A DNA stretch of 64,000 bases from Diplonema papillatum (Eukaryota > Euglenozoa > Diplonemea > Diplonemida > Diplonemidae). The stretch spans positions 124,001-188,000 of the forward strand of contig JAPJBO010000106.1 of the NCBI GenBank assembly GCA_030068145.1. The letters are read 5' to 3'. The notes below the pieces were generated by a model, which saw nothing but the letters and a program-made list of their open reading frames with translations, ran no database searches and was not told where the DNA came from. The position numbers were made by a program, and so were the translations under genes. Below are positions 1 through 59,846 of this stretch, in pieces; within the stretch, counting starts at the first letter, position 1; each line of letters opens with the position of its first letter.

Positions 1-546
1 TGCGGAGTCTATCGTGGGTCAGCTCCAACCCTCTCCCGACGACAGGCGTGGAACTCGCGCTTGATTTTGAGGCATTTACGCGTTCGAAGCTCCCAGGGAG
101 AACCTTCGCCGAGAAGGGGCTGCAAATTGGGTACCTTATGCGAGCTATCAACGACCTGTGCTGCGCCGACTCAGGAGTCGCCTCCTTCCCTGGGAAGTGG
201 CGGCAGGGGGTCTGTTCCCTCCGCTGTTTTGGTGCGCCGGCTATGCCGGGTTGTACCCACCGCCCACGCTTTGCGGCTGGACGGAAGACCGAGTGGATGT
301 TGGGCAAGCTGGAAACAATTTGCGCCCGTAACAGCTGGAACGATGCCGTGCCTGAATATCCGCACGACGTACCCTATGTTCAGTGGGAGTTGAGATTCTC
401 TGTCAAGATGCTAGCCGCCGCCATAGGGCGGGCTATTGCCAAAAGGAGGAGAGCCCGCGAAACAACGTGTCAACACACGCCTGCCAGGCGGTCTCGTCCG
501 CCAGTCAGAACGCCCCCGTGCGCCACCATCGGTGCAACAATCATCT
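1..546 (+). pseudogene. 3' end of an APE-type LINE ORF2, 5' part outside window
   Basis: The sequence matches 13093-13640 of the full LINE downstream with only about three differences over ~545 bases: one G/A near the start, one T/C near 469, and two missing bases near 519. The reading frame is that of the ORF2 C-terminus, open from base 3, and the two-base loss shifts it into a stop at 582-584. Homology to the LINE stops abruptly after 546, where Penelope-like element sequence begins, so the LINE 3' UTR and its CT-rich tail are missing here. The near-identity to the second copy implies recent movement of this family. Confidence 0.85.
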
Positions 547-1203
547 CCATCAGCCAACCGGCGTACACCGAAGCAGCATGTTAGTTTTCCATACGTCTTC
601 CCACGCGAACTTTATCGCACACCACCCGTACAAAGACGCGAACCGGCAACCACAAAGTTTTGACAAGACGCACGGCCGCCGGCTGGCAACAGACCGCAGC
701 AACACACTCCAACCCTATCAGACAAACGCCACACACCGAAAGGGCATAGATCGCCAGACGTTAACCCAGGCGTGCCGCACCAAACTGCTTCTGCAGCAAG
801 ACGCGATCCTACACACTCACAGCGTCGCCAGTCCCGACTACCGCCGACGTCGAGCACCAAACCGCAGCCACACATACCAACGCTACCATCCCCATATGAC
901 ATCCGCTGCACACCGAAAAAGCCTACTAAAGCTGAAGGCGTCGTCCCACTCGAATTGAATCACGCTTACGCCGCAGCAAGACACCAGGCGTCATACACGC
1001 CGTATTGTCAAATTCCACTGCCGCCGACGCCGCACACCGGACTGCAGCCACCCACTACATCTTTACCATCGCCATCAGATGACCGCTGCATACCTAAAGG
1101 GCCTCCCAGTCCTTACGTCTTCCCACGCGAACTTTATCGTACACCGCCCGCAGCAGTACACGAGCCTACTTACGCACCATATCACCAGGTACCACCGCCA
1201 ACG
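547..1203 (+). other. 5' leader of the Penelope-like element, with an internal repeat
   Basis: The stretch at 593-627 (encoding YVFPRELYRTPP in one frame) recurs at 1113-1147 in the frame of the main ORF, so the leader carries an imperfect ~520-bp-spaced direct repeat. The main reading frame is open from before 772 but contains no ATG until 1204. Translation therefore starts at 1204, at a non-AUG codon, or after splicing or a join upstream. Confidence 0.5.
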
Positions 1204-4200
1204 ATGCTGAGCACGCAGACACCTAAACAAACCAGAACCCCCACACAATACCGTAACACCACACCCTCACCCATCATACACGAAATAGACAACACCACAC
1301 CGACCTCCAGCACCATCTCAGAAGCACAATCCAACGATTTTCACGACCACTCACAAACAAAACCTCTTGCCCCCAACTCCACGAGCAGTACGACACTCGC
1401 TACCGACACGCCGATCACACCTACATTCGCACGCCGCATGTCAAACCATACTACTCACGACGCATCCCCTTTACCCACTTACCAGGAAGCGATGACACAC
1501 AGGACGCATCAGACTACACCTCCAAACTCGACGCCGTCCCACCAAACACACCCGCTAGCAAAACCCACACCGCCATCCGCCGAACTTAGCTCACACCAAA
1601 GCGACGCACTCAAACACATACCGACTAACAACACCATGCCCGGGCGCGACACATACAAAGAAAGTATACAAAGGACAACCGAACACCCAACACCTTCGCC
1701 ACCGCCTGTCCTCACACCCTTCGTACGCGATAGCCACCGCCATAAACTGCCGCACACCCGAACTCGGGAGACCTACACCCATGTCACCACAGACACTAAC
1801 CTACAACAACCCAACCACACTCCATCACAACGACAAGCGACCTACAGCAACTGGCACTACCGACCTACGACTAATGCAACGGAACACACACAAAGTACAC
1901 CAGAAGACATCCCCGCTAATTCCACCAACTCACCCAGCAAAAAGGATTTCCAGAAGCACACAATCGTCCAGAACGCGATAAATTCACAGGACGCACGAAG
2001 GCCGGAGTTTCACAAGAACCCTTTCCTGACATGCTTTCGAACGAAAGCCAAATTCAACTACGGAAAACAGTTTTGGAGTGAGTACGAAGCACGACGAAAA
2101 GAAGCCGAGAAGACGTTTCTCGCCAAGTATCATCGCAAACTGGCAAAAGGATGGAAACACTGCGACGCAGACAAAGCAAGTTATGCCGACAAAGGAGTCG
2201 TGTATGCACTGGTAGACGAACGCGGTAACCCTCGCTACGTCGGCCAGACCAAACACACCGCGCGCGAGCGCTTAGATTCACATTGGTACGCTAGACGTAA
2301 CGGCACACCCGTAGCGTCCGCGATGTTGAAAAGAAACTACCCGCTCTTCACCGTCCCCCTAATTAAGATCAAAATTGCCGACGACGCCTCGACGGAAGAC
2401 TTCAGACGTCAAGCCCTCCCGCGAGAAAACTTCTGGATTTCGCACCTCAACACCGTCTACAATGCGCAACGATACATGAGAAGCAACACAGGACAGCACC
2501 GCAGTCGCAACAAGAAGTCAAACCAAGAACGTTTCCGACCTCCGAGTGCACCGTCCAGCACCGTTTGGGCATGGATAACGGACGGCCAACTACTCATCAA
2601 CCAGACCACCGAAGGCCGCGCTTACTCCATACGCAAACAACTCCACCATCTCCTCTCGCTCAACGACAAAGACCTCTTTAAATACGATTTCAGCTCGATG
2701 GGACGGCCGAGGGCACGACGTCTGCTCAACTGGATAGCATCGAACGCACCAACTAGTAACCTACCGAAGAACGTCATCACGTTGGAAACCCATTTGAAGG
2801 ATAGGCTCAGCGAAGTCACGTTGTCGAAAGTCGAGAAGAATGACGGCGCACCAGCACGACTGATCATCACACACGGAAGCGACCACATACACCGACTCCA
2901 CCTCAACGACCTACTCCAACAACCACAAATACGCGAAGCATGCCCTAACCGACGCACTCTAGATCGTACCAAGACAACGTTCCGACTAAACCCACCCCTG
3001 TTCCTACGGGTCCAGAACGTCACAGAAGTCAGTAAAAGCCTGCCAGACCTCGCACTCGGTCCACCCGATCAATGCGCGTGCCGACACTACCGCGGCGACA
3101 AGAACATTCAAGGACACGCGATCGGGCACCTTTTCGATATAACACAAGACAAAGGCCTCACTGAGTGTATCAAACGCGGACGAAAATACCGCTGCTACCA
3201 GGACCATCACGCACTCGAAGAGGGACTACACACTTCCATAGACGAATACGTAGAAAAATACTACCCGTCGGAACCAAACGCTACCGCTTTTGGAACCGCG
3301 TTGAAGGACGAACTTTCGGGACGCCTAGCCACTTTACCACCATCTGACGAAGAAACTTTGAGCCGTATCGCATCGCAAGAACTCAAGAGACTCAAACAAG
3401 ACTTGGTGATACTGCCCGTAGACAAAACCACACACGACTTCGGGTTTTGTTGCAAGGCGTACTACACAAACACACTACGGGAGCAAATACAAACCAGCGC
3501 CACATACAAGAAGGAAAATATAACGAAGACGCAGCTTCAACAACAACACAAGCAGCAGCTCGAGCCTTTCAAATTACAAGCACAAGGCGGACTACCATAC
3601 CTCTACGGCAGTCTCAAATTGCATAAAGCCGAACCGAGTTTCCGGTGGATCGCGGGCGTAGCGACAGACATCGTAAGGAAAGACAACAAGGCAGCTGCGC
3701 GCAAGCAGAAACCGAAAGCAACTACTACGAACGCCCACCTAGAGCTGTCCGGTCTGCTGAAGGCGATTATGCGGACGATAAAGGAAAAGGACCGACGGAA
3801 CCAACGACAGACGGGAATAAAGAAGGTCTTCTTCACCGAGAGCCCCGACGACATAGCCCTCAACGTCAAACAGCGTCAAACCCATCTGAGATACAAAACA
3901 CCCACCGACCACGACTTCACGACAATGTACACCAACCTACCGCACGCAGATCTCAAGCGCAGGGTTGGTTCAGCTGTCGACGAAGCTTATGAATACGAGG
4001 AGAAGCACGGCAACAACCACCTCACCCGAGGAGCTAAGCAACAGGGCAAAAAGACTTTTAGTTTCGGCAAAGGGGCGAACAACACCAGCCGAAACTATAC
4101 AAAAGAAGAGCTCAAAGCCCTCCTCAACTTTGTCATCGACAATGCCTACATCGAGCAAGACGAAACCATACTACGCCAAACGGAAGGTATTCCGATGGGA

Positions 4201-6447
4201 GGCAATGCAAGTTCGGACCTGGCCAACTTGTATTGCTACAGTGTGGAGTCCGAGTACATAGACGGACTGCTCGCAGAAGGCAAAGTCGACGAAGCCAAAG
4301 CCCACGTCGACACATGGCGTTTCATTGATGACTTCCTCCAATGGGACTGCAAACCACCACCTCAATCACTCTATCGTATGGAGTACAAGGAGACGACAGC
4401 AGCACGCGACGACATCGTCTTCCTTGGAATACGTATACGTATTGAACGACCCGCAGCACCACACCCGCCACACATAAGACTAAGCGTACACCCAAAAACC
4501 TTCGGCACACGTTTCACACACTACCAGACCACCGCCCCCAAATCACAGGCCAGCGGCATTTTCAAAGGGTCTCTCATCAGGGCAATTCGACAGACCAACC
4601 ACTGGCAGGACCTTCGCGTCGAGATCCAGCGCAACGTATACGCGATGCTCGAACGGGGGCACCACCCCAGAGTTCTCTACCCCCCTTGGCAAGCTTGGCT
4701 GACGGAGGAGTTCCGAACCCTACCACGACTACACAGCCAGTTAAAACCGTTCCTAGGGTACAGCATTGCGCGTTTCAAGAACGGCAAACCGCGCATGAAA
4801 GAGCCAGATTTCGCCGGAAGACACCAACCCCTTAACTTCAAACCAGCCGAACTGCCAGTAACACCGGAGGATCTCGACTCAACGACAGACAGCCACTCCA
4901 CAACAATCCTTGAACACGAGGAAAGACCAACAAACCTCCTTTCACAACCACAACCTCAGTTCACCTTGAAGCACCGAGTAGCCAACCTAGCTGCAACCAT
5001 CACCTTAGCAGCAGCAATCGCAGCCGCCGGAGCGAGGACCATGTCTAAACTCACGAGATACACCACCACAAACTCCTGTTTTCTGCAAGCGGCCCTTAAT
5101 TTGATCGCCGCCACAGACATGGCACAACAAGTAGTCACATACCACGACTGCCCAACACACACGAAAGGCGAATGCACGGCAGCCGTACACGCTTGGGTGA
5201 CAGGAAAGCGGACGCAAGCAACTCTGCTGCACGTTTTCGCCAACATCGACGGACCGTTCGGCAACGGGCAGCAATGCGACCTCGGGGAAGTTTTAAGAGC
5301 CATCACCACAGCACTTCTTGACGAAAACCTCGCACACCAAACTTGCCAACAACATCGCCCTGACGCTTTCAACGGTCTACGACATACGACGACGACGACA
5401 ACTACTTGTAAAAACTGCAACCACAACAAAACCAACCCACCCGAAGACCACGACATAACCTTCCTACCTCCAATCGACAACTCGATCCAACGGTGCCTGA
5501 ACAATCACATCAAACCTGGCCCCGCCGCCGACTACAGATGCGAAGTCTGCAAAATCACCGATACCACCCTCGCAACAACAACATTTCACCGCATTAATTC
5601 AATGCTGTTGATCCAGCTTCAAAGAGCCCGTAGACGCCAAGCGACGAACCGTACCGCTATACGCGCCGACCACTCTATCACGCTTCCAGGACAAAACACA
5701 CCACTCATACTCAAAGCCGTAGCAGTACACTCCGGCCACAACAACGCCGGGCACTACGTCATTCACGCCCTCAACGATATCGACGCTAACCAACGTTGGA
5801 CTCGCTTCGACGGACTACAGACGCACTCCACTTCGACGCAAAACTACACCGACAACGAAGTATACCTCTGCGTCTACCAGCTCAAAGACAACCCACAGAC
5901 AGGTGTCCCTCCACCCATTGACCCATCATACCACAACCACTATGAACCCCCAAAGCCTGCCACGCCCAGAACCACAACACAAGAGCCGGACTCGACTCAA
6001 AGCATACTTAGAGCTATGCGCGGAGACGAGACATCTACCGACACACCCACACAACGACACGACAGCACACCCCCCACACGAACACCCACAACACCAGGCA
6101 CGTCACAGACCTCCAGTACCACCGCGGAAACAGAGACCAGCAGTGAAGACGACTTACGATGTCCCCACTGCCACACACGCACAACAACAACCGGCCTCAA
6201 ACTGAAGGGAAAACAAGGATTACGGACGCACCTACGTTACTGCAAGAAGAAACCACCCAGAACTAAGTCACAAACAGAAACAACGCTGCGAAGCACCACC
6301 CAGAAACGAGATAGATGTCCCTACTGCCACAGCGACGGACGAACCGTGGGGAAACCACGCTTCAAAAGTCTACGCCACCATAAGCCCTGGTGTAAAAAGA
6401 AGCACTGTAAACGACGCACAGCAACGACGACTACATCAGACGAATAA
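1204..6447 (+). CDS. Penelope-like polyprotein: GIY-YIG nuclease - RT - USP deubiquitinase - zinc fingers
   Basis: From the first in-frame ATG the product is 1747 aa (the frame is open upstream to at least 772). Residues 1-~300 are Pro/Thr/His-rich and look disordered. GIY-YIG: GVVYAL at 2194 and RYVGQT at ~2233, followed by RERLDSHW. A PLE-typical CxC...GHLFD...RGRKYRC block lies at ~3070-3200. RT: YGSLKLHK at ~3604, TTMYTNLP (motif A) at ~3919, GIPMGGNASS (motif B) at ~4186, and RFIDDF (motif C) at ~4318. USP (C19) domain ~5041-5880: Cys box NSCFLQAALN with candidate Cys codon 5077-5079, zinc ribbon CKNC (5407) and CEVC (5539), LLIQLQRAR, and His box HSGHNNAGHYV with His codon 5752-5754, then WTRFDG with Asp 5809. 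Two C2HC-type fingers begin CPHC (6160) and CPYC (6316). RT and nuclease would copy and insert the element. The protease role is unknown: host ubiquitin removal or polyprotein processing are both possible. No frameshift is seen, so the copy could be active. Confidence 0.85.
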   Translation: MLSTQTPKQTRTPTQYRNTTPSPIIHEIDNTTPTSSTISEAQSNDFHDHSQTKPLAPNSTSSTTLATDTPITPTFARRMSNHTTHDASPLPTYQEAMTHRTHQTTPPNSTPSHQTHPLAKPTPPSAELSSHQSDALKHIPTNNTMPGRDTYKESIQRTTEHPTPSPPPVLTPFVRDSHRHKLPHTRTRETYTHVTTDTNLQQPNHTPSQRQATYSNWHYRPTTNATEHTQSTPEDIPANSTNSPSKKDFQKHTIVQNAINSQDARRPEFHKNPFLTCFRTKAKFNYGKQFWSEYEARRKEAEKTFLAKYHRKLAKGWKHCDADKASYADKGVVYALVDERGNPRYVGQTKHTARERLDSHWYARRNGTPVASAMLKRNYPLFTVPLIKIKIADDASTEDFRRQALPRENFWISHLNTVYNAQRYMRSNTGQHRSRNKKSNQERFRPPSAPSSTVWAWITDGQLLINQTTEGRAYSIRKQLHHLLSLNDKDLFKYDFSSMGRPRARRLLNWIASNAPTSNLPKNVITLETHLKDRLSEVTLSKVEKNDGAPARLIITHGSDHIHRLHLNDLLQQPQIREACPNRRTLDRTKTTFRLNPPLFLRVQNVTEVSKSLPDLALGPPDQCACRHYRGDKNIQGHAIGHLFDITQDKGLTECIKRGRKYRCYQDHHALEEGLHTSIDEYVEKYYPSEPNATAFGTALKDELSGRLATLPPSDEETLSRIASQELKRLKQDLVILPVDKTTHDFGFCCKAYYTNTLREQIQTSATYKKENITKTQLQQQHKQQLEPFKLQAQGGLPYLYGSLKLHKAEPSFRWIAGVATDIVRKDNKAAARKQKPKATTTNAHLELSGLLKAIMRTIKEKDRRNQRQTGIKKVFFTESPDDIALNVKQRQTHLRYKTPTDHDFTTMYTNLPHADLKRRVGSAVDEAYEYEEKHGNNHLTRGAKQQGKKTFSFGKGANNTSRNYTKEELKALLNFVIDNAYIEQDETILRQTEGIPMGGNASSDLANLYCYSVESEYIDGLLAEGKVDEAKAHVDTWRFIDDFLQWDCKPPPQSLYRMEYKETTAARDDIVFLGIRIRIERPAAPHPPHIRLSVHPKTFGTRFTHYQTTAPKSQASGIFKGSLIRAIRQTNHWQDLRVEIQRNVYAMLERGHHPRVLYPPWQAWLTEEFRTLPRLHSQLKPFLGYSIARFKNGKPRMKEPDFAGRHQPLNFKPAELPVTPEDLDSTTDSHSTTILEHEERPTNLLSQPQPQFTLKHRVANLAATITLAAAIAAAGARTMSKLTRYTTTNSCFLQAALNLIAATDMAQQVVTYHDCPTHTKGECTAAVHAWVTGKRTQATLLHVFANIDGPFGNGQQCDLGEVLRAITTALLDENLAHQTCQQHRPDAFNGLRHTTTTTTTCKNCNHNKTNPPEDHDITFLPPIDNSIQRCLNNHIKPGPAADYRCEVCKITDTTLATTTFHRINSMLLIQLQRARRRQATNRTAIRADHSITLPGQNTPLILKAVAVHSGHNNAGHYVIHALNDIDANQRWTRFDGLQTHSTSTQNYTDNEVYLCVYQLKDNPQTGVPPPIDPSYHNHYEPPKPATPRTTTQEPDSTQSILRAMRGDETSTDTPTQRHDSTPPTRTPTTPGTSQTSSTTAETETSSEDDLRCPHCHTRTTTTGLKLKGKQGLRTHLRYCKKKPPRTKSQTETTLRSTTQKRDRCPYCHSDGRTVGKPRFKSLRHHKPWCKKKHCKRRTATTTTSDE

Positions 6448-6582
6448 CCTCACTAACCACGGGTACCCAGTGTGCCCAGAGTGCCTTAACTGTGGCGAGC
6501 AACGAACAGTTTTACCCAGCAAATCTACCCAAAAAAAACCTTATATTAGGGCGGAAGCAACCCGCACCACGTGAAGCACCGC
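6448..6582 (+). other. 3' trailer of the Penelope-like element
   Basis: Short non-coding stretch after the TAA stop, with an A-run near 6531-6538. No repeat, ribozyme or terminator structure was recognised. The end of the element is not defined by a duplication. Confidence 0.35.
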
Positions 6583-6900
6583 AAGTGTCGCGAAACCCAA
6601 GCACTACTCTACGAGAAAATACATAAAAACGCGGACAACAGACCGGTACGGGCTACAAGGCAACCCCTGCTCAACTTGTAGAACGTGGGGGGCCCAAGAT
6701 TACACTCCACGAAGGAATGTACTTGGTGTCGGTCACAAACAGTCCCGGATATGGCTAGCCATAACCCATAACGAAAGCATGCACTAAATATACAATCCGT
6801 AACCATAAAGCCCTTTCTTGCTCTAAGAGAACCCATTCATGAACGGTCACACGGAGACCCTAAAACCCCGGTATTTCAAGCGAACTTTAACTCTAAAAAT
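6583..6900 (+). repeat. Dispersed repeat family A, copy 1
   Basis: About 320 bp that is repeated with small indels at 61041-61395 (shared landmarks: GCAAGTGTCGCGAAACCC at the left, CTCAACTTGTAGAACGTGGG in the middle). It ends in the short module described at 15633 and elsewhere (CGGAGACCCTAAAACCCC then CAAGCGAACTTTAACTC). Non-coding. It could be a SINE or a solo end of a larger element. Confidence 0.75.
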
Positions 6901-8110
6901 TTTGGGTCAAAAAAATCGGTCAAAAAAAATCGGTCAAAATTTTGGCCAAAAATGTTGGTCAAAAAAATCGGTCAAAAAATTTTGGTCAAGATTTTGGGTC
7001 AATTTTTTTTTGGTCAAAAGATTTTGGCCAAAAAATTTGTTCAAGAAAAATCGGTCAAAAATTTTGGTCAAAAAAGTTGGTCAATTGTTAGCCAATCTGA
7101 GAAAAATCACACACGGAATTCGAACCCAGAAAACCCTTTGCCGTGCTGTGCCAGCTACTGGAGTGGCCACACCTATTTGCACACGTTCATCTTCGCTGCA
7201 GGTAGGGGTTTTCGGGCCCACCCGGAGCGAGTCCAACCTTCTCCACGTCTTATCATCTCATCACTCGAAACAGTCGTATCATTTTATCATTGCTTGAATT
7301 TTTGGAGTCTGATACTCGAAACAGTCTAGATAGGGTCACCCACGTGTGTTTACGCCCGAAGGCTACATAAGAACCGACTTGAAAAATCGTCCACAAAGAG
7401 CTTGCCGCCGTTTGCGTTAAAGAGAGTGTCATCGAAAAGTACTCTGGTCTGAACTCTGCGAGCTATGTATCATGTTTCCCGGTTTCTCTTTCAGCACCCG
7501 TATGCTCGCAACATTCATGCCCGGTACTTCCAGTCTTTTAGCGTGTTGCACCCCTTGCTCCCACTACGGCCGTCCAGATGCCGCCGGGTTGCAGGAATCT
7601 GATAGTCCCTGTCACGAACACCGCCACGAACTCGCTGACGAAGAAGGTTGTTGGAGGTCAAGAGAGTTAACAACGCAATGGTTGCCAAAGTGTTGCGCCG
7701 CAAGTCGGCAGTCGCAAATCGGCAGAAAGGGGGTCCAAGTAAACGAGACCTATGCAAAGTTGAAATGGGATGAGATTAGACGCTACCCCAGAATCACCTT
7801 GACTCCCCCAAACGTATCCCACACATTGAAGCTTAAAACCCGCAACTTGAAACTTCGGCTAGAGTTCGAATCCAAATCGCACAGTTGTCACAGTCAATGG
7901 CTGGGTAAATGGTTCGAATCCCGCCATGGGTGTGTTCTCAGGGATTGGAGTCTATTTGTAGACCAAAAAAATTTGACCAAAATTTTGACCAAAAAAAATT
8001 GACCAAAAAATTGACCAAAAATTCGACCAAAATTTCGGCCAAAATTTTGCCAACTCAGAAAAATGACCAAAAATTTGCAAAAAATGACCAAAAATTTGCA
8101 AAATGTGGCT
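6893..8110. repeat. GTCAAAA/TTTTGAC-rich repeat clusters flanking ~850 bp
   Basis: 6893-7090 is packed with variants of GGTCAAAATTTTGG. 7960-8105 is packed with the complementary GACCAAAATTTTGACC. Together they form a loose inverted arrangement around 7100-7950. Both clusters adjoin a CTGAGAAAAAT or CTCAGAAAAAT string. No protein is recognised between them. A MITE-like or foldback element is plausible but no clear termini were found. Confidence 0.5.
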
Positions 8111-8216: not shown

Positions 8217-8491
8217 TTATAATGATGGGACGTTTTCTTGAGCCGAACTCCCGTTTTCTGTGCGCAAGCCCAACTGCGGTTGTGGTTCGCGCTGCACGCG
8301 GCCCTTTGGACCCATTTCGGGCGAGGTAAAGACACTGGCCTTGCCAACACCTCCAGTACTTTCTGACCACCTGTGATGTTCATCTTGGCAAGGGGCCAAT
8401 GTGCAAGCGACCTTGCGTTTCTTGTGCTGATGCACTGGATGGCTCGCCTCGGCCTTTCCCTGCCACCAGCTCACAAGGGTGTTGTCCTGGC

Positions 8492-8668
8492 GGCTGGCTG
8501 GGCAGCTGGCTGGGCGACTGGCTGGGCAGCTGGCTGGGCGACTGGCTGGGCGACTGGCTGGGCGACTGGCTGGGCGACTGGCTGGGCGACTGGCTGGGCG
8601 ACTGGCTGGGCGACTGGCTGGGCGACTGGCTGGGCGACTGGCTGGGCGACTGGCTGGGCGACTGGCTC
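8492..8668. repeat. 12-bp minisatellite
   Basis: About 15 tandem copies of GGCTGGGCGACT, with GGCTGGGCAGCT variants at the left edge. The 12-bp period leaves all frames open, so apparent ORFs on both strands across it are artefacts. 8669-8923 shows nothing further. Confidence 0.95.
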
Positions 8669-8923: not shown

Positions 8924-9325
8924 CTCCAGGCTCTCAACTTTTCCCTGGCTATTTGGTCGAAATCCAAGCTTAAAAGCCTCAACGAACGGCCCGAGCCGTC
9001 TCCGGGCCAAAAGAGGGGACGCACAGAGGATGAGACAACTGAGTCCCAGGAAAAGCTAGCACGGGTGGACGGCAAGGACAACATGGTCACCGACTGCCGG
9101 CACACCAGCTGGCAGGAAGCACACTCGAACGCCGAAGCTTTCCTCTGCGTGGTCTGCGCCAAAGGCATGCAGGTCGGACAAGCCAAGCGGCTTTGCGCGC
9201 ACGGCCCCTGCCAGGCTGCAATCTGTCACGCATGCTGGACTAAGTCGCGGGCCACGCCGACAACTTCATCTCCCTCGCCCGCGCAGGCGACCGCCGACGT
9301 CCCCCCCCCGGAGTCACAATGGTGA
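8924..9325 (+). CDS. LINE ORF1-like zinc-finger protein
   Basis: Open frame with no ATG before 9083; it begins after a stop at 8921, so it is either 5'-truncated or uses a non-AUG start. The C-terminal half has closely spaced cysteines (FLCVVC, then RLC, PC, AIC, ACW), resembling a RING/PHD-like treble-clef finger, preceded by a charged KRGRTEDETTE segment. Its TGA (9323-9325) overlaps the ATG of ORF2 (9319) in the string ATGGTGA, suggesting coupled or re-initiated translation. It would bind element RNA or assist ORF2. The assignment rests on position and the finger only. Confidence 0.5.
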   Translation, partial: LQALNFSLAIWSKSKLKSLNERPEPSPGQKRGRTEDETTESQEKLARVDGKDNMVTDCRHTSWQEAHSNAEAFLCVVCAKGMQVGQAKRLCAHGPCQAAICHACWTKSRATPTTSSPSPAQATADVPPPESQW

Positions 9326-12300
9326 TCCACGCCAACGATTTGTCCCCCCAGCCGACGAGAGAGTTCTATCTGGCCCTCGTAGCGTACGCGCTTCTCGTGA
9401 CTCAAGGTATCGAACCCAACCCTGGCCCTCCACCAATTCGAATTGTGACTATAAATGTCACGTCCTTGATGAAGAACCTGTACCTCCTCATCTGCATAGC
9501 GGCGGACATCATCTGTGTTCAAGAAACGAAGTTGACGAGTGCCGGGCAGAGAAGTATCCGGATGGCCCTGAAACAAGCCGGCGCCCTTGATGTATGGCAA
9601 CCCTTCTTCGGCAGCTGCTGTGTTGGGCGGAAGTGCGGCAACAGCGTCCCATCCCAGGTTACAGGAGGTAGTGCAGGAGTCGCGATTTTCGTCAAGAAAG
9701 GCTTGCCTGCATGTATCGTCGAGCCTTTTGACGCAGCCGAGCAACGTGCCTACGAATCGGCCCGCTTCTTGCATGTACGTGTCGCGACAGGTGTAGGTAA
9801 AGGAGCCGTACACGTGGTGTCATTGTACGGTCACTGTGGCATTTCCGAAAAACCCGAGCGGGAAAGGTTGATCGAGGGATCCCTGTGGGGATTGCGCCAG
9901 CGCTTGGGTGCTGTGCCCCTTGTCGCCGCCGGCGATTTCAACACGACCCCCCTCGGTTCCCCGGCGCTCCGATTCGCCTTGCGCAACGGCTGGTCGGACT
10001 CTGCCGAGCTGCAAGCTGAAGCCCTGGGAAGTCCTGCAGAGTTTACATGTTACCACGGTCAGCCGTCACGCATCGACCTTCTTCTCACCAACGAAGTCGC
10101 TTCTGCCGCTCTCGGTCGCGTGGAGACTTTCGAAGCCGGCCTCCCTACGCACAAGGCGGTCCGAGCCACCTTTAATCTTGCAGTATTCCAACAACTGAAC
10201 CCGGTACTCCGGTACCCCCGGGCAATTCCAAGCACCGGGCTGAGCGGCCTGGACGACCCGAATGCCCTCCGGAACGTCTCTGAGAAGTACCGCCTCGGGG
10301 ACCCTTGCCCCCCCGGGCTCGAAGGTAGCCCCCGGGTGAACTTCCTCTGGCAACGGACTTCGCGAGCTGCGGAAGAGTACCTCATCCTCAAATCCGGAAT
10401 CGAAGGCAACCTAACCGGGTACTGTGGCCGTGGCGTACGTCGGGAATTGAACTCTCAGCGAGTATCGGCGAGGCCGTCCCCTGAAGGTGCGGGAGCCGAT
10501 ACAGCTTCTTTGAAGAGAGCCAGGTGTCTCCTTGGGCGCATACGGGAGTACGCAGCCGCCAGAGCCAAATGGGAAAGCACAATCGTCTCCCCTGGCCCTT
10601 TGCCCTTCCAGCTTGAGGGACAGTGGACGAAAATACGCTCCTTTCGAAGTTTCGTGTTGCAGCGCACGGATGGGAAGTGTGCTCTGCCACCCGAGCCGCC
10701 GTCAGCGAAAATCGGAAGAGGCCTCGCGTTTACCGTCTCAGGACTGTGTCGTGACCTGGCGCATAGCACGCTAACTTCGAGATACCTGAAGAGCGCGAGG
10801 AGTCAGCGGGAGCTTCGCGACCCCCTGGGGAAGGAATCGTTCGCTTGGGTGAAGAAAGACGCGCCATCGGGGTTATCGTTTGTAACTGGGGCCGATGGGC
10901 GGCTCACTGCGAACTTGGCAGAAGTTGACGCGTTGGTGAGGAGGAGTTGGGATCCAGTGCTCCGCATGTACGCCGAGAAGAGGGAACCCGAGTTTGCCCC
11001 TTTCTTCCAGGAGTACAAAGACTTTATCACGCAACACCCATGCAATCTAAATCCGATCACGGCCGAGCGGCTTCGTCAGGTGGCGAAAAAGAAGAGCGTA
11101 CAGACGTCTTGCGGTGTCGACGGCTGGCGCATGCGTGAAATCGCCGTTCTGCCGAATGCAATCCTGGAAAGCTTTGTCGCGGTGCTCAACGAGGTAGAGG
11201 AAACCGGCTTCTGGCCCGACGGAGTCCTGGACGCAATGGTCACCTTAATTCCTAAAGGAGAAGGGAGTGATCCACTGAAGCTGCGTCCGATTACTGTCTC
11301 GAGCGTGGTATACCGACTCTGGGCTAGCGTGCGCCTACAGGATGTCATGCTCTGGCAAGAGCTATGGATTCACGGGTCGCAACATGGTTTCCGGCACGGC
11401 CACTCCTGCGACGACGTGGTCATGGATATCGCCCTATCCATAGAGGAATCACTGACAAACGGTACACCCCTGTGCGGGGTCGCACTCGACTTTGCCAAGT
11501 GCTTTGACCGCGTCCCTCAGGCCCTGGTGCTCGACTTGATGGAGGCGCTTGGGCTTCACGAGCGTGTGCTGGCACCCTTACGCCACATATACAAGCACCT
11601 GCGGCGTCGCTTCCGGTACCCCTTGGGAGTCGGCGAGATGTTCACTGTCACCAACGGAATTCTCCAGGGCTGCCCGATATCAGTGGTCCTGATCAACGCG
11701 CTCCTCTCTGTTCTCTCGAAGGCCTTGGTCAGCCGAGCTCGGGTGAGTCCGAAGTCGTTCGCCGACGATCTGTACCTGCTGTCGCAACTTGCGAGGCTAC
11801 TCCAAGAGGGAATTCGAACCACAGAGGTGTTCGACAGCCTGACAGGCTTTGCCCTCAACGAGGACAAGTCGGTCTCCTTCTCGACGTCCCCAGAGCCTCC
11901 TCGCCTCGTGATCGGTCGCAAAATAATTCGATCGAGCAAAATAGTGAAGGTTTTGGGTGTCCCCCTGGGCACAGAGGGACCCGTTGACAACCGCAGGGCC
12001 AACGCCACGGTCGAGGCCGCGGCCAGACTTGAGGCGGCGCCGCTCATGCATCGCACGAAGTTCCGCATAATGCAGACGATCGCAGCCTCCGCGTATTACG
12101 GGGCGGCCTACTGCACGAATACAACAGGTGGCTTCGTCAACAGCTCAACGCTCCGAACGGCACTCTCCGCTTGCGTGATCCCTCGATCTAACCGGGCGAA
12201 GAGCCCTCTTGCGGTTCTCTCCCTGGTTGCAAAAGCACACCTGTGTGATCCGGCATGCGCCTCAGGTTTCAGCTTATTCCGCACGTTCGTGAAACAATAC

Positions 12301-13698
12301 GGGAAAGAGAGGTTTCGGGTGAGGATGGACGCTCTCCTTCGCGTGGGAGCCGACTCGTCTATCAAGGGTCCCGTAGGTCTTATGGCTAATCTTCTGCGGG
12401 AGATAAGATTCCTACGGGCCACGCAGCACAGCTTCCAGTCCCTGTCTTTCGACGGGACTCCCGTGTCGCTACTCGGTAAAGAAGCCCCACACCTCTTTCG
12501 TGAGGGCCTGCGTCTGCGCGCGTGGCGTTACTTGACCACACAGAGACAAGGATTTGACGGAATCGAAGGAGGGGTGGACGTACGTGCCATGAATCGGCTT
12601 TGGCTGAACCGCGCGACGGACCACAAATTGAGTTCCGCGATCAGTCGATGTATTGGGGGAGCGGTGTACTCACGGGAATGGTGCCGCAGGAAGTGGGGTT
12701 CGGGGAGCGGCGACTGCGAGTTCTGCGACAGCGGTGCGACGGGGACCCTGTGGCATTACTACTGGCAATGTCCGGGCCCAGGTTGTAGATGGAACGAGCT
12801 GCGATCCCGGTTTTGCATTGCTGAGGCGATGGTCCGGGACATGCCCCAGTGCTTGTGCATTAGAGGGATACCCCCCTACGGGACCCCTCCTGACCTCCTG
12901 GAGAAGATCCAGAGGCTGATCGGTACGATCTCAATCGAGATGGCGCAGGCGCAGCGGAGCCTTGCGGCAACACGCCCTTGGGAACTCGCCTCAGGTGCGT
13001 CGACGAAATACGACGTACACTTAGCAACGGACAGTCGTAAGTTGCTAACGACCAACATCGGAACCCGCTTCGCAGCGACGTTGGTCTTCTGGCTGCGGAG
13101 TCTATCATGGGTCAGCTCCAACCCTCTCCCGACGACAGGCGTGGAACTCGCGCTTGATTTTGAGGCATTTACGCGTTCGAAGCTCCCAGGGAGAACCTTC
13201 GCCGAGAAGGGGCTGCAAATTGGGTACCTTATGCGAGCTATCAACGACCTGTGCTGCGCCGACTCAGGAGTCGCCTCCTTCCCTGGGAAGTGGCGGCAGG
13301 GGGTCTGTTCCCTCCGCTGTTTTGGTGCGCCGGCTATGCCGGGTTGTACCCACCGCCCACGCTTTGCGGCTGGACGGAAGACCGAGTGGATGTTGGGCAA
13401 GCTGGAAACAATTTGCGCCCGTAACAGCTGGAACGATGCCGTGCCTGAATATCCGCACGACGTACCCTATGTTCAGTGGGAGTTGAGATTCTCTGTCAAG
13501 ATGCTAGCCGCCGCCATAGGGCGGGCTATTGCCAAAAGGAGGAGAGCCCGCGAAACAACGTGCCAACACACGCCTGCCAGGCGGTCTCGTCCGCCAGTCA
13601 GAACGCCCCCGGCTGCGCCACCATCGGTGCAACAATCATCTTTGACAGGGCCACGGCTCGCTCCGCGCCCACGGCGCAACGACTTGCGCCCGCCGTAG
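9319..13698 (+). CDS. LINE ORF2: APE endonuclease and reverse transcriptase
   Basis: 1459 aa. Residues 30-37 read GIEPNPGP, a 2A-like motif preceded by LLVTQ (the usual Asp is Gly here). The APE/EEP endonuclease follows: VTINVTSL at ~9447, VQETKL at ~9519, GDFNTTP at ~9931, SRIDLLLTN at ~10066, PTHKAV at ~10144. RT motifs: LIPKGEGSDP at ~11248, LRPITVSS at ~11281, HGFRHGHSCDDV at ~11383, ALDFAKCFDRV (motif A) at ~11482, GILQGCPISV (motif B) at ~11659, SFADDLYL (motif C) at ~11755. A C-terminal CCHC knuckle CEFC-x9-H-x4-C lies at ~12715-12771. No RNase H is visible. The frame is intact, so the copy may be competent. Target-primed reverse transcription is the family mechanism. Confidence 0.92.
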   Translation: MVIHANDLSPQPTREFYLALVAYALLVTQGIEPNPGPPPIRIVTINVTSLMKNLYLLICIAADIICVQETKLTSAGQRSIRMALKQAGALDVWQPFFGSCCVGRKCGNSVPSQVTGGSAGVAIFVKKGLPACIVEPFDAAEQRAYESARFLHVRVATGVGKGAVHVVSLYGHCGISEKPERERLIEGSLWGLRQRLGAVPLVAAGDFNTTPLGSPALRFALRNGWSDSAELQAEALGSPAEFTCYHGQPSRIDLLLTNEVASAALGRVETFEAGLPTHKAVRATFNLAVFQQLNPVLRYPRAIPSTGLSGLDDPNALRNVSEKYRLGDPCPPGLEGSPRVNFLWQRTSRAAEEYLILKSGIEGNLTGYCGRGVRRELNSQRVSARPSPEGAGADTASLKRARCLLGRIREYAAARAKWESTIVSPGPLPFQLEGQWTKIRSFRSFVLQRTDGKCALPPEPPSAKIGRGLAFTVSGLCRDLAHSTLTSRYLKSARSQRELRDPLGKESFAWVKKDAPSGLSFVTGADGRLTANLAEVDALVRRSWDPVLRMYAEKREPEFAPFFQEYKDFITQHPCNLNPITAERLRQVAKKKSVQTSCGVDGWRMREIAVLPNAILESFVAVLNEVEETGFWPDGVLDAMVTLIPKGEGSDPLKLRPITVSSVVYRLWASVRLQDVMLWQELWIHGSQHGFRHGHSCDDVVMDIALSIEESLTNGTPLCGVALDFAKCFDRVPQALVLDLMEALGLHERVLAPLRHIYKHLRRRFRYPLGVGEMFTVTNGILQGCPISVVLINALLSVLSKALVSRARVSPKSFADDLYLLSQLARLLQEGIRTTEVFDSLTGFALNEDKSVSFSTSPEPPRLVIGRKIIRSSKIVKVLGVPLGTEGPVDNRRANATVEAAARLEAAPLMHRTKFRIMQTIAASAYYGAAYCTNTTGGFVNSSTLRTALSACVIPRSNRAKSPLAVLSLVAKAHLCDPACASGFSLFRTFVKQYGKERFRVRMDALLRVGADSSIKGPVGLMANLLREIRFLRATQHSFQSLSFDGTPVSLLGKEAPHLFREGLRLRAWRYLTTQRQGFDGIEGGVDVRAMNRLWLNRATDHKLSSAISRCIGGAVYSREWCRRKWGSGSGDCEFCDSGATGTLWHYYWQCPGPGCRWNELRSRFCIAEAMVRDMPQCLCIRGIPPYGTPPDLLEKIQRLIGTISIEMAQAQRSLAATRPWELASGASTKYDVHLATDSRKLLTTNIGTRFAATLVFWLRSLSWVSSNPLPTTGVELALDFEAFTRSKLPGRTFAEKGLQIGYLMRAINDLCCADSGVASFPGKWRQGVCSLRCFGAPAMPGCTHRPRFAAGRKTEWMLGKLETICARNSWNDAVPEYPHDVPYVQWELRFSVKMLAAAIGRAIAKRRRARETTCQHTPARRSRPPVRTPPAAPPSVQQSSLTGPRLAPRPRRNDLRPP

Positions 13699-22375: not shown

Positions 22376-22579
22376 GGGAACATTTCCGGGACAACAGTTG
22401 CGTATGAAAGAGGAAACCGACCGCTTACCACAAGAAACAGTCTAAGAAACGAAGCCAACGAAAAAGTGCCCGTGCAGGAAGCCCTCCAGAGAGGTTTATA
22501 CCCTGTGTCATTCTCCTCACCCGTGGTTAGCGATGGCTGAGAGAACCCATGCAGATGGACGGGGAGAGGCCCTGGGACT

Positions 22580-22744
22580 GGTAAGGCGAGTCTGGTAAGG
22601 CGAGTCTGGTAAGGCGAGTCTGGTAAGGCGAGTCTGGTAAGGCGAGTCTGGTAAGGCGAGTCTGGTAAGGCGAGTCTGGTAAGGCGAGTCTGGTAAGGCG
22701 AGTCTGGTAAGGCGAGTCTGGTAAGGCGAGTCTGGTAAGGCGAG
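22580..22744. repeat. 14-bp minisatellite
   Basis: About 12 near-perfect copies of GGTAAGGCGAGTCT. The apparent frames across it are repeat artefacts. The flank at 22797-22870 (TCTCAAGCAACTC, GTAGATGTGCCAA, GCACCCGCCCG) recurs at 23757-23827 and 23890-23945. Confidence 0.95.
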
Positions 22745-57217: not shown

Positions 57218-58718
57218 AAAACCGATCCCCGGGTTTCACGTTTCTTTCGGGCGTACCGCGGCATGGGATATTGTCGCTACTGGGAACTGACTCGTGCACC
57301 GCCCAGCTGGTGCCTTCCTCATTCGTTGATGAAGCCCGTCATTAAATGCACCCGATTCCTTACTAACCGGTCAGTCAGGCGCAGAATACTGGACACAATC
57401 AAAAAGAACGGTCCGGGACAACCGACAAGCGTTCGTCGCCAACACAAAAAAAAAAAAAAGCCTTCCTCGTTCCACGCAAATTCCGCCCTGACACTTGCCG
57501 TCGTTAGGGGAGGAGAGGGAGACAAACCCCAAAACCCTTCGTCTCTAGCCTTGCTTACGCCGGTGCCAAGCGACAGTCAGCGCCTTTGCAGGTGTGTGCA
57601 AGCTTTGGCGCCAGTGCTGTACGCAAAAAATTATACCTCTCCCCGCACTTTAAGTGCTCAGTGTTATCACCGACTCAAAGTCGCCTACCTGACCTGCTTA
57701 CCCGAAGCGTACGTGTAATACGTGTTATAGTCAGCTGAAAAGAGCAGACGCACGTATGCACAAAGGACTTTCGAACGACGAAAATCGTCGACCGCATAAA
57801 ATGTCTGAAAGCCACTCGGTCTGGCAGACGAGGCAGCGCGGCACTATTACACTAGAAACCGAAAATGCCCCGTCGCAAGCTTTTGTCGCTCGAGCGCACA
57901 GAGCGGCTCAGACGGTTAGGAGATTTTGAAGATCTCTGAATAAAAGGGCGTTCTGTTTGTTATTAGTGCACGTCCAATGAGTTACTTTGCTGTGTCAAGA
58001 AATGGTCGGACCCCTACCTGAAGACCATTTCAGACGAGCCGCTTGCCGTGTTTGAACAAACCATTTCTTTTTTTTTAACTTCACCGTTTCTGCAGCGCAA
58101 CTGAAAGAGACGGCGACAGAGAACGCGACCAAGCGGAGACGTATCGGTCTTAAAGGATGACTGCTTCCCCGACTATTAGCGTTCTGCAAAAACAGGGCTT
58201 CTACCTTACTCGTTTCACTTTAGGGATTGGCGGTGCGTGTGCGACGCACGGTGGAACTGACCGAGGATTATGACCTTCGCCGGCAACCGATCGCATCAAA
58301 TCACGAGTTGCATCACACGTCGTAACCGGGCCGAAAGTGACCCTTCCGAAGTCATGTGGCGGAAGTCACTTATCAGCGTGCCGAGGGCTCCCCTCACTAA
58401 CGCAACGAGCCCTAAAAGAAGAAACTGTGTGCTGATCCACGGAGTGTAGCGTTCAACACAGGCGACCGAGAAGGTTGGTAACTTGGCACCAGCTCAGTCT
58501 AGTCAATACAACATAGGTTCGCTGGGCCAGCGGAGGCCGGCCGAGAGTACGCTGCCTACCACAGCCTACGAGTGTGATATCTAAAGCACCCGAAGTTGAA
58601 CAAAATCATCAGGAAGGGGGAAAAGGCGCGACAAGACAGCTGATCACCGAAGAAACAGAATTCCTGCTGTACCGCGCGCGTTTTGACGCCGGTCGAAGGG
58701 TATCACAACAGAGAAAAA
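57218..58718. other. Intergenic, promoter side of the ZIP gene
   Basis: Contains poly-A (57447-57460) and poly-T (58067-58075) tracts. No gene, no copy of the recurrent module and no convincing promoter motif. Confidence 0.4.
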
Positions 58719-59846
58719 ATGTCGTGGGGGGTAGGTGATTTAGAGAGCCATATCAAGGGTACGATCATCACGTTGGTATGGCTGGCCGGTTTCACCGGGG
58801 CCATTTGGCCGCTGGGGCTCAATTCGAAGCCCGAGACGCTCTCGTTCTTGTCTTGCTTTAGTGCGGGAGTCATCTTGAGTGTCGCTCTGCTGCATCTGCT
58901 CCCAGACGCGGAGGGGGAATTACAGCTGACAACGGACTACCCACTGGGCAACTTGCTGTGCTGCCTCGGGCTGTTCATCGTGCTTTTTGTGGAAAAGGTG
59001 ATCATGGGACCGCATGAGGCAGTCATCGGCGATTGGCATGGCCACGGCGGTCACGCCACTGCCGAGCGGCCCCTGGAGTCAGACCAGGACCCTATTCTTG
59101 CCAAACAGCCAGAGAAGGTGCGTCATGCCTTGCATCCGACGGAGGCGCTTGACTCGACCTGCACGTACACGCCTGGCTGCGAAGACTTGAAGAGTCCAAT
59201 GGACACCGGTGGGCTTGCCCTCCCAGCGTGGGACACGACGCTGTCTAAGCGAACTGTTTGCAACGCGCCCGTGGAACACCATCACCATTTAGCATACCAG
59301 TCGAAGCAATTCCGCCAAGGGCTTGAAAGCGGTATAAACTTTGCGAAGCACATGAACAACGAAGTCAACACCGACGTCCAATACGATGAACGCTCACCTT
59401 CCCGCTGGGTGCCTCTCACGCTCCTCTTCCTTCTGTCCTTCCACTCGATCCTTGAAGGCTTGGCGCTCGGGTCCGCCCAGACAGACCGGGACATCTTTGT
59501 CCTCGCAGTCGCGATTCTGTCGCACAAGTTCCTCGCCGCCATGTCGCTGGGGATCTCGTTCGTGAAGTCGAACATCCCCTCGCACACGCACGCCACGTAC
59601 GCCGTCTTCTTCTCGTCGATGACTCCCTTCGGCGCCCTGCTCGGCGTCTTCGTTTCCGAGATTCTCGACGACAAGTTCGTCCGCCTCTTCGCAGCGACTA
59701 TGCAGGCCCTTGGCTCCGGCTCCTTCGTGTACATCGCCCTCATGGAATTCATCCCCGAGGAGCTCGTCGGCGAGCAGTCGGGCTGGAAGCTTTTCGTTTG
59801 CTTCATCGGATTCGCGGCTATGGCCTTGGTTGCTCTCTACGTCTGA
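58719..59846 (+). CDS. ZIP family metal (zinc/iron) transporter
   Basis: 375 aa from ATG 58719 (GAGAAAAAATGTCG), intronless. TM1 TIITLVWLAGFTGAIWPLGL, TM2 SFLSCFSAGVILSVALLHLLPDA and TM3 LLCCLGLFIVLFVEKVI lie in the first ~110 residues. A ~110-residue cytosolic-type loop follows, with HGHGGH and VEHHHHLAY His clusters. TM4 carries FHSILEGLALG (His242, Glu246) and TM5 LSHKFLAAMSLGISF (His269), the metal-site signature of the family. Three further hydrophobic helices end at MALVALYV with almost no C-terminal tail. Members move Zn2+ and similar ions into the cytosol across the plasma membrane or from organelles. Substrate specificity cannot be read from the sequence. Confidence 0.93.
   Translation: MSWGVGDLESHIKGTIITLVWLAGFTGAIWPLGLNSKPETLSFLSCFSAGVILSVALLHLLPDAEGELQLTTDYPLGNLLCCLGLFIVLFVEKVIMGPHEAVIGDWHGHGGHATAERPLESDQDPILAKQPEKVRHALHPTEALDSTCTYTPGCEDLKSPMDTGGLALPAWDTTLSKRTVCNAPVEHHHHLAYQSKQFRQGLESGINFAKHMNNEVNTDVQYDERSPSRWVPLTLLFLLSFHSILEGLALGSAQTDRDIFVLAVAILSHKFLAAMSLGISFVKSNIPSHTHATYAVFFSSMTPFGALLGVFVSEILDDKFVRLFAATMQALGSGSFVYIALMEFIPEELVGEQSGWKLFVCFIGFAAMALVALYV

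Follow-up and report, generated by a model that had tools for sequence, protein, structure and literature searches.

A predicted USP-type ubiquitin protease domain recurs in Penelope-like retroelements of Diplonema papillatum

The element in the window and its USP domain

The mobile elements of diplonemids, which are abundant in the sea, have been little described. In this study, we analysed 64,000 nucleotides of the Diplonema papillatum genome (contig JAPJBO010000106.1, positions 124,001 to 188,000 of the forward strand; hereafter the window). Near its start lies a Penelope-like element (PLE) whose single open reading frame (ORF) encodes a GIY-YIG endonuclease, a reverse transcriptase (RT) and a putative ubiquitin-specific protease (USP, family C19) domain. 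A preliminary description had reported a PLE with a C19 USP at 1204-6447, in one uninterrupted frame. As shown in Table 1, the frame is indeed uninterrupted, with 1891 amino acids (aa) and a TAA stop, and the frame, the Pfam UCH match, the GIY-YIG and RT motifs and the other copies bear out the identity of the element. Comparison with fetched copies moved its limits to 542-6899.

Table 1. Features of the PLE copy, in positions of the window (dN/dS, ratio of nonsynonymous to synonymous substitution rates)
Feature	Position	Strand	Basis or remark
PLE copy, 5′-truncated	542..6899	+	blastn against copies
Open reading frame, 1891 aa, 5′-truncated	772..6447	+	
Pro/Thr/Ser-rich N-terminal region, weakly constrained	772..2190	+	sequence; dN/dS 0.28-0.39
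N-terminal GIY-YIG endonuclease (VVYAL, YVGQT, R, E of RENFWI, N)	2194..2523	+	Pfam PF01541
PLE-type reverse transcriptase	3403..4668	+	motifs, starting at: LVILPVDKT 3403, LPYLYGSLKLHK 3592, HDFTTMYTNLP 3910, QTEGIPMGGNASS 4177, RFIDDFLQ 4318, FLGIRIR 4420
Ubiquitin-specific protease (C19/USP) domain	5047..5934	+	Pfam UCH; PDB profile search
Catalytic Cys codon	5077..5079	+	residue -5 is Thr (5062-5064), usually Asn
Q and D of QxDxxE	5272..5280	+	invariant in 13/13 aligned USPs
Zinc-ribbon cysteines (5407, 5416, 5539, 5548)	5407..5550	+	invariant in 13/13
Catalytic His codon	5752..5754	+	invariant in 13/13
Third catalytic residue, Asp (Asn in L033)	5809..5811	+	Asp in 12/13
Two C-terminal CCHC-like zinc fingers	6160..6393 (6160-6243, 6316-6393)	+	named by eye
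3′ untranslated region to conserved 3′ end	6448..6899	+	

The copies L010-L013, which are near-identical or 94-95% identical, begin their homology at position 542, and L014 does so at 544. The 3′ end falls at exactly 6899 in 10 of 15 copies (L009-L023) and within 8 bases of it in three more; it lies at 6085 in L015, and in L023 homology continues to 8103 through a flanking repeat common to L023 and the window copy. Except for these two, which adjoin the same repeat, the copies differ in their 3′ flanks, and the element end ...AACTCTAAAAA is common to other copies and subfamilies. The window copy is 5′-truncated. Sister copies have stop-to-stop frames of up to 2602-2762 aa, and the additional N-terminal length in L012 and L019 is repetitive Pro/Thr/Ser-rich sequence with tandem peptide repeats, for example around DWYVPT and YIPRRPSPRF.

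The USP motifs lie exactly where the preliminary description had placed them: NSCFLQAALN at 5071-5100 (Cys codon 5077), CKNC at 5407-5418, CEVC at 5539-5550, LLIQLQR at 5605-5625, GHYV at 5749-5760 (His codon 5752) and WTRFDG at 5797-5814. The hidden Markov model search that it had suggested was run and gave a match of Pfam UCH (PF00443) to aa 1432-1702 (E=9.8e-12, 45.4 bits against a cut-off of 23.9). UCH was also above the cut-off in five other frames, L019, L033, L034, L035 and L029 (31.5-82.4 bits), the last belonging to a long interspersed nuclear element (LINE). We then aligned 13 USPs, 11 of them in retroelement frames that were read and two (L053 and L055) assigned by similarity; the copies L025, L026, L030, L031 and L032 were read and stand outside this alignment. 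Its profile matched 105 distinct PDB sequences at E≤0.01 and ranked USP36 (2.3e-26), USP12 and USP46 first. The element USP shares with these cellular USPs the Cys and His boxes, QxDxxE and the zinc ribbon, but it is distant from them in sequence, lacks in the window type the Asn at position -5 of the catalytic Cys, and is embedded in a retroelement polyprotein.

GIY-YIG and RT stand together in one ORF, as in Penelope-like elements. The GIY-YIG of the window copy (aa 474-513) scored below the Pfam cut-off (17.7 against 22.6 bits), as did those of L035 and L019, and those of L033 (25.3 bits) and L034 (23.0 bits) scored above it. At a loose E≤10, PF01541 matched six of the seven members of a GIY-YIG/RT alignment (best E=7.5e-6), the seventh being without this region. 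RVT_1 gave no match in the window copy and matched one of the seven members (E=0.03), and a group II intron RT model matched four of them (best E=0.0035). The RT was assigned from its motifs DFTTMY, GIPMGGNAS and RFIDD and from its relatives: it aligns over its length with the elements L057-L060, whose PLE status we infer from GIY-YIG (three of four) and from RVT_1 matches below the cut-off (three of four). A PDB search with the RT gave no match, and hhalign of the GIY-YIG/RT alignment against a LINE in the same window gave no meaningful match. Possible head-to-tail copies were found at 2 of 20 loci, L024, where a 3′ tail abuts a truncated body, and L026, where the two are 97 bp apart; both may be separate insertions. 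Hammerhead ribozymes are not present in all PLEs, and none was among 20 Rfam rows at E≤5 in seven loci, a search that divergent forms could escape.

Copies, families and selection on the USP

All genome counts in this study are lower bounds, in which only the best candidates were scored. The window USP gave at least 106 matches (104 of 914 candidates scored) at 100% to 46% identity; 94 of the 106 had no internal stop, and 14 were at 100% (rounded) over the whole query. The RT gave at least 105 matches; 98 of the 105 were followed, on the same strand and within 2 kb, by a USP match. This count used all 106 matches of the window USP and 94 of 133 from a second USP list; 37 of the 39 left out are places already in the first. 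According to the preliminary description, absence of the domain from all other copies would have indicated a chance local fusion; with 98 of 105 RT matches accompanied by a USP, this is not the case. A fusion limited to the window copy was rejected, the USP being present in many copies and in several diverged families.

The families differ widely in sequence. In L033, the RT is 64% identical to that of the window (over the RT columns) and the USP 38%. The RTs of L034 and L035 share 40% and 38% identity with the window RT; the USPs of these two families are canonical, with the boxes GLPNLGNTCF and QHDAHE, and score 82 and 74 bits, respectively, against UCH. The first CCHC-like zinc finger is also present in L033, L034 and L035. 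Among 111 L034-type RT matches, 77 had a listed UCH match downstream. For this comparison, 112 of 149 UCH matches were picked by eye as repeat-type, and 76 of the 112 have an RT match upstream. Judged by sequence, a Diplonema lineage of PLEs with an N-terminal GIY-YIG carries a recurrent C-terminal domain of predicted USP type. Near-identical copies with long open frames suggest that the PLE families were recently active. Separately, equal-scoring C-terminal halves of a USP lie in 334-aa frames at C287:32645-33004, C1461:11799-12158 and C1783:4421-4780, and perhaps represent another repeat family with a piece of the USP.

Selection was estimated from single copies standing for families. Five of the seven PLE pairs gave a USP dN/dS of 0.13-0.17; three pairs were bootstrapped, and their upper limits were 0.22-0.29. 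Between the window copy and L019 the USP value was 0.156 (95% bootstrap 0.096-0.230), and the RT, GIY-YIG and the N-terminal spacer had values of 0.036, 0.039 and 0.276, respectively. The pair L034 and L035 gave 0.130 for the USP, 0.056 for the RT and 0.065 for GIY-YIG. Overall, the RT ranged over 0.03-0.06 in the three PLE pairs that gave a value (the remaining pairs being saturated or without RT) and the spacer over 0.28-0.39. Where both could be computed, the USP value was 2.3 to 5.3 times that of the RT, and between the window copy and L028 the RT is 80% identical and the USP 54%. These results indicate that the PLE USP is kept under purifying selection.

The same data bear on whether the USP is a passenger, brought in by chance fusion or by an assembly artefact. 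The evidence here is genome sequence, and the USP of the LINE described below comes from three loci and that of L059 from one, which leaves some room for this explanation. The large number of copies, the presence of the USP in several diverged families, its constant position in each family read and the selection against amino-acid change all speak against it, and for the PLE families the linkage of RT and USP (98 of 105) together with dN/dS already contradicts it. We regard it as scarcely credible.

A LINE with the same module and the origin of the USP

One USP match, L029, lies outside PLEs. Its frame contains a CCHC motif and a putative restriction-like endonuclease stretch of the R2/NeSL type, recognised by eye (CRICK...HALNC and RPGLVPGDV...SVDVTIVNP), with the USP downstream of the endonuclease; Pfam found only UCH in it. 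LINE RT motifs, again by eye, lie just upstream in L056, a copy at C1429 that is 99% identical over the endonuclease query. The USP is also carried by a second copy of this LINE (L036) and by a second LINE family (L037), whose endonuclease region is 64% identical. The LINE USP was read in three loci, and the LINE endonuclease gave at least 68 matches.

When placed in one tree together with 13 host USPs, those of the LINE fell inside the window-type PLE USPs (100/100; 97/99 without L033). Because of this position, movement of the USP module between two retroelement classes is well supported by the sequences. A clade of all 12 PLE-labelled USPs excluding the LINE was rejected (p=1.3e-7), and a clade of the seven window-type USPs, again excluding the LINE, was marginally rejected (p=0.043). 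Since a clade of the six closest window-type USPs was not rejected (p=0.125), the direction from PLE to LINE is favoured, not proven.

The preliminary description had proposed that the element captured a host deubiquitinase, which would perhaps protect the RT or edit histone ubiquitin. Capture from a host remains plausible, but no close parent was found in the tree among the 13 host USPs read, which were taken from 36 UCH matches judged not repeat-type, some of them pieces of one gene. The retroelement-type USPs stood on one side of a branch (99/92; 86/91 when the long L059 sequence was added). A long-branch warning applied to the join of window-type and L034-type USPs, and a single origin within Diplonema is not secure because this join may be an artefact of long branches.

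A comparison of the GIY-YIG/RT alignment with prokaryote genome contigs gave four loci, all on short contigs of metagenome-assembled genomes, which we took for eukaryotic contaminants. L057, L058 and L060 have GIY-YIG and RT in the same order as the Diplonema element, and no USP was found in any of their frames of at least 150 aa. In L059 (29% GC, open 5′ end), a single frame of 879 aa encodes a PLE RT and a USP (UCH E=5.6e-27). By its RT, L059 joins the three USP-less elements (100/100), and its USP stands apart from the Diplonema USPs; a single origin was not rejected (approximately unbiased test, p-AU 0.34). Of 200 bootstrap trees of the RT, 28% separated the USP carriers from the other elements by a single branch. 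These results suggest that the L059 USP is possibly a second acquisition, seen at one locus; one capture for all retroelement USPs, L059 included, is neither shown nor rejected. Four scans of viral contigs gave no relatives. A short upstream ORF was observed in L058 (1-453) and L060 (214-867 and 5487-6050), PLEs of other organisms, and in L060 the element is followed by a close copy of this ORF, which resembles a tandem arrangement.

Proposed role, related systems and surroundings

We favour, with a probability of about 0.5, the reading that the USP is an active deubiquitinase that acts in cis and protects the integration complex. Carried to the target site together with the RT and endonuclease, the USP would remove ubiquitin attached by host E3 ligases to the retroelement protein or to its binding partners. 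The complex would thus escape degradation until target-primed reverse transcription ends. A common ubiquitin-based control acting on both would, we propose, be the reason why the module occurs in two retroelement classes whose nucleases differ. Such protection of the element protein is favoured because it would explain this sharing and because human L1 offers a precedent: TRIM41 is reported to ubiquitinate L1 ORF2p, with a fall in retrotransposition (PMC10716122). More tentatively, and at somewhat under even odds, the USP may be a selectable, exchangeable counter-defence module with at least two acquisitions by PLEs in distant organisms (Diplonema and the L059 host), passed from a PLE to the LINE with the restriction-like endonuclease.

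In the main rival reading, the targets of the USP are chromatin or repair proteins where the element inserts. The enzyme would remove ubiquitin from histone H2A/H2B or from repair factors, for example PCNA, and deubiquitination would open the target or influence how the target-primed intermediate is repaired. A DNA-cutting domain (GIY-YIG; restriction-like endonuclease, by eye) is present in both carriers and would bring the USP to chromosomal DNA. The PDB matches of the profile include entries named 'Ubiquitin carboxyl-terminal hydrolase 8', which we take to be yeast Ubp8, the H2B deubiquitinase of SAGA. Ubiquitin/SUMO proteases of transposons have also been proposed to act on repair (PMC2836005). 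No sequence pointer to histones or PCNA was found, and the best profile matches are several different USPs; we consider a chromatin or repair substrate rather unlikely.

The USP could also be a self-processing protease that cuts a long polyprotein, as viral cysteine proteases do. In favour of this, the ORF is one polyprotein of 1.5-2.7 thousand aa with distinct domains. USPs cleave after the ubiquitin C-terminus, however, and Pfam found no ubiquitin-like domain in the PLE and LINE frames scanned, which makes self-processing very improbable.

Several observations weigh against the cis-acting deubiquitinase or narrow its basis. The first is the residue at -5 of the catalytic Cys. Asn stands there in 4 of the 13 aligned USPs, including the L034/L035 type, and in all 13 host USPs; in the other nine, including the window type and the LINE, it is replaced by Thr or Lys. 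The activity of the window-type USP may be altered or lost because of this replacement. The Asn at -5 forms the oxyanion hole of USPs, and CYLD is active without it; owing to this case, and to the presence of the other features of the family, we kept the USP assignment. The replacement, and the Asn that stands for Asp as third catalytic residue in 1 of 13 (L033), would suit a window-type USP that is no longer catalytic and instead binds ubiquitin or acts as a scaffold. The catalytic Cys and His, QxDxxE and the four zinc cysteines are kept in all 13, which mere binding would not need, the L034/L035 type has the canonical residue at each of these positions, and CYLD again speaks for activity, so that a pure binding role seems improbable. 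Returning to the cis-acting deubiquitinase, its top PDB matches, USP36, USP12 and USP46, indicate no substrate.

Further points concern the linkage of the USP with the elements and the selection on it. Seven of the 105 RT matches had no USP match, nor did 34 of the 111 L034-type RT matches in the list used. Among these 34, 13 form one subfamily (79% identity, ORF of up to 1590 aa), and a PLE family without USP may therefore exist. L053, L054 and L055 were called PLEs by the similarity of their USPs, with no RT read or listed beside them. The USP dN/dS was 0.41 between the window copy and L033 and saturated between the window copy and L028. In the LINE it was 0.21-0.38, compared with 0.23 in the preceding linker (dS 3.76, near saturation); the LINE USP is not clearly more constrained than the linker, and selection on it is therefore weaker evidence. 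Finally, the faster evolution of the USP than of the RT fits adaptation to changing host ligases, and relaxed constraint could give the same result.

If the USP is an exchangeable counter-defence module, protist cells would restrict retroelements through ubiquitin. The occurrence of related domains in two kinds of element of one genome suggests that jumping genes may evade or manipulate the protein-tagging system of the cell. With a deubiquitinase-type domain kept in diverged PLE families, common to a LINE and seen again in an unrelated PLE, a direct test is possible of whether a retroelement needs its own deubiquitinase to move and of which host ligase it answers.

Craig et al. are said to have described in 2021 PLEs with an N-terminal (permuted) GIY-YIG, the Naiad/Chlamys clade. 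Like these, and like L057, L058 and L060, the Diplonema element has GIY-YIG and then RT in a single frame. L057, L058 and L060 have a Cys pair just before YVGET/YIGET, which the Diplonema GIY-YIG lacks, and the Diplonema element adds the C-terminal USP and zinc fingers. No published retroelement or PLE with a USP was found among the papers ranked first in a literature search that did not cover the main PLE study, and absence from print is not established. To our knowledge, the role of Ulp1 and OTU proteases in retroelements and DNA transposons is unsettled.

Other combinations of mobile elements and such proteases have been described. NeSL and Utopia LINEs carry Ulp1 (PMC4640811) and likewise combine a restriction-like endonuclease with a cysteine protease of the ubiquitin/SUMO kind; their Ulp1 is N-terminal, whereas the Diplonema LINE has a C19 USP downstream of the endonuclease. 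Ginger1, Helitron and Mutator DNA transposons with OTU or Ulp1, and a Trichomonas transposase_11 protein with Peptidase C19 (PMC2836005), are similar fusions of a transposon protein with a ubiquitin/SUMO protease. Unlike the elements studied here, these are DNA transposons, and for C19 the example is one protein, which appears in a discussion. In bdelloid rotifers, long terminal repeat (LTR) retrotransposons and Athena PLEs share accessory ORFs (PMC5408684), which is likewise an exchange of an accessory enzyme between retroelement classes that include PLEs; the shared enzymes there are a DEDDy exonuclease and a GDSL esterase, and in Diplonema a predicted ubiquitin protease. The Diplonema genome paper names LINE-1, SLACS, R2, jockey and DNA-transposon types in its main text, where a word search found no mention of Penelope or ubiquitin.

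Target-site duplications of the PLE were also compared. Among the six copies whose 5′ junction is known, one clear case was found, of 16 nt in L017; a low-complexity flank match of 11 nt in L023 was not counted, and 11 further copies with an unfixed 5′ end gave no match longer than 9 nt. A control of 30 mismatched pairs gave one 16-nt match, the others being at most 7 nt; the 16-nt match arises because the TTTTGGTC repeat flanks both L023 and the window copy. L023 is 77% identical over window positions 3830-8103. At 6895-8106, about 1.2 kb lies between inverted arrays of TTTTGGTC/GACCAAAA units and resembles a foldback repeat or one of the miniature inverted-repeat transposable element type. 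The window PLE copy ends at one of these arrays, and L023 adjoins this same repeat.

Several observations concern LINE copies elsewhere in the genome. SLACS/CRE elements insert at spliced-leader genes. In C233 (4373-6160 and 12930-12951), a LINE endonuclease match with a 3806-aa frame is preceded on the same strand, at a distance of about 6.8 kb, by a spliced-leader motif, perhaps as a trans-spliced retrocopy or an insertion at a spliced-leader gene. The motif was the diplonemid form with at most one mismatch, found 645 times in the genome (reversed control, 0). LINE copies also lie within 15 kb of the contig start, with the 3′ end outward, in C6, C364, C703, C104 and others, and C364 begins with a poly(T) run followed by sequence also present at the LINE 3′ end in C6. 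These could be assembly-breaking clusters or chromosome ends.

A large-subunit ribosomal RNA gene fragment occupies positions 1-1000 of L024 (297 bits), and the genome paper reports about 3600 28S pieces scattered in the Diplonema genome. Elsewhere in the window, a second retroelement at 9319-13698 is a LINE with an apurinic/apyrimidinic (AP)-type endonuclease and RT (Exo_endo_phos E=1.6e-12, RVT_1 E=7e-19), in which Pfam UCH gave no match. Minisatellites were found at 8489-8667 (12-base unit) and 22578-22744 (14-base unit, about 12 copies, 100% uniform), and a ZIP zinc transporter is encoded at 58683-59846 (E=5e-47).

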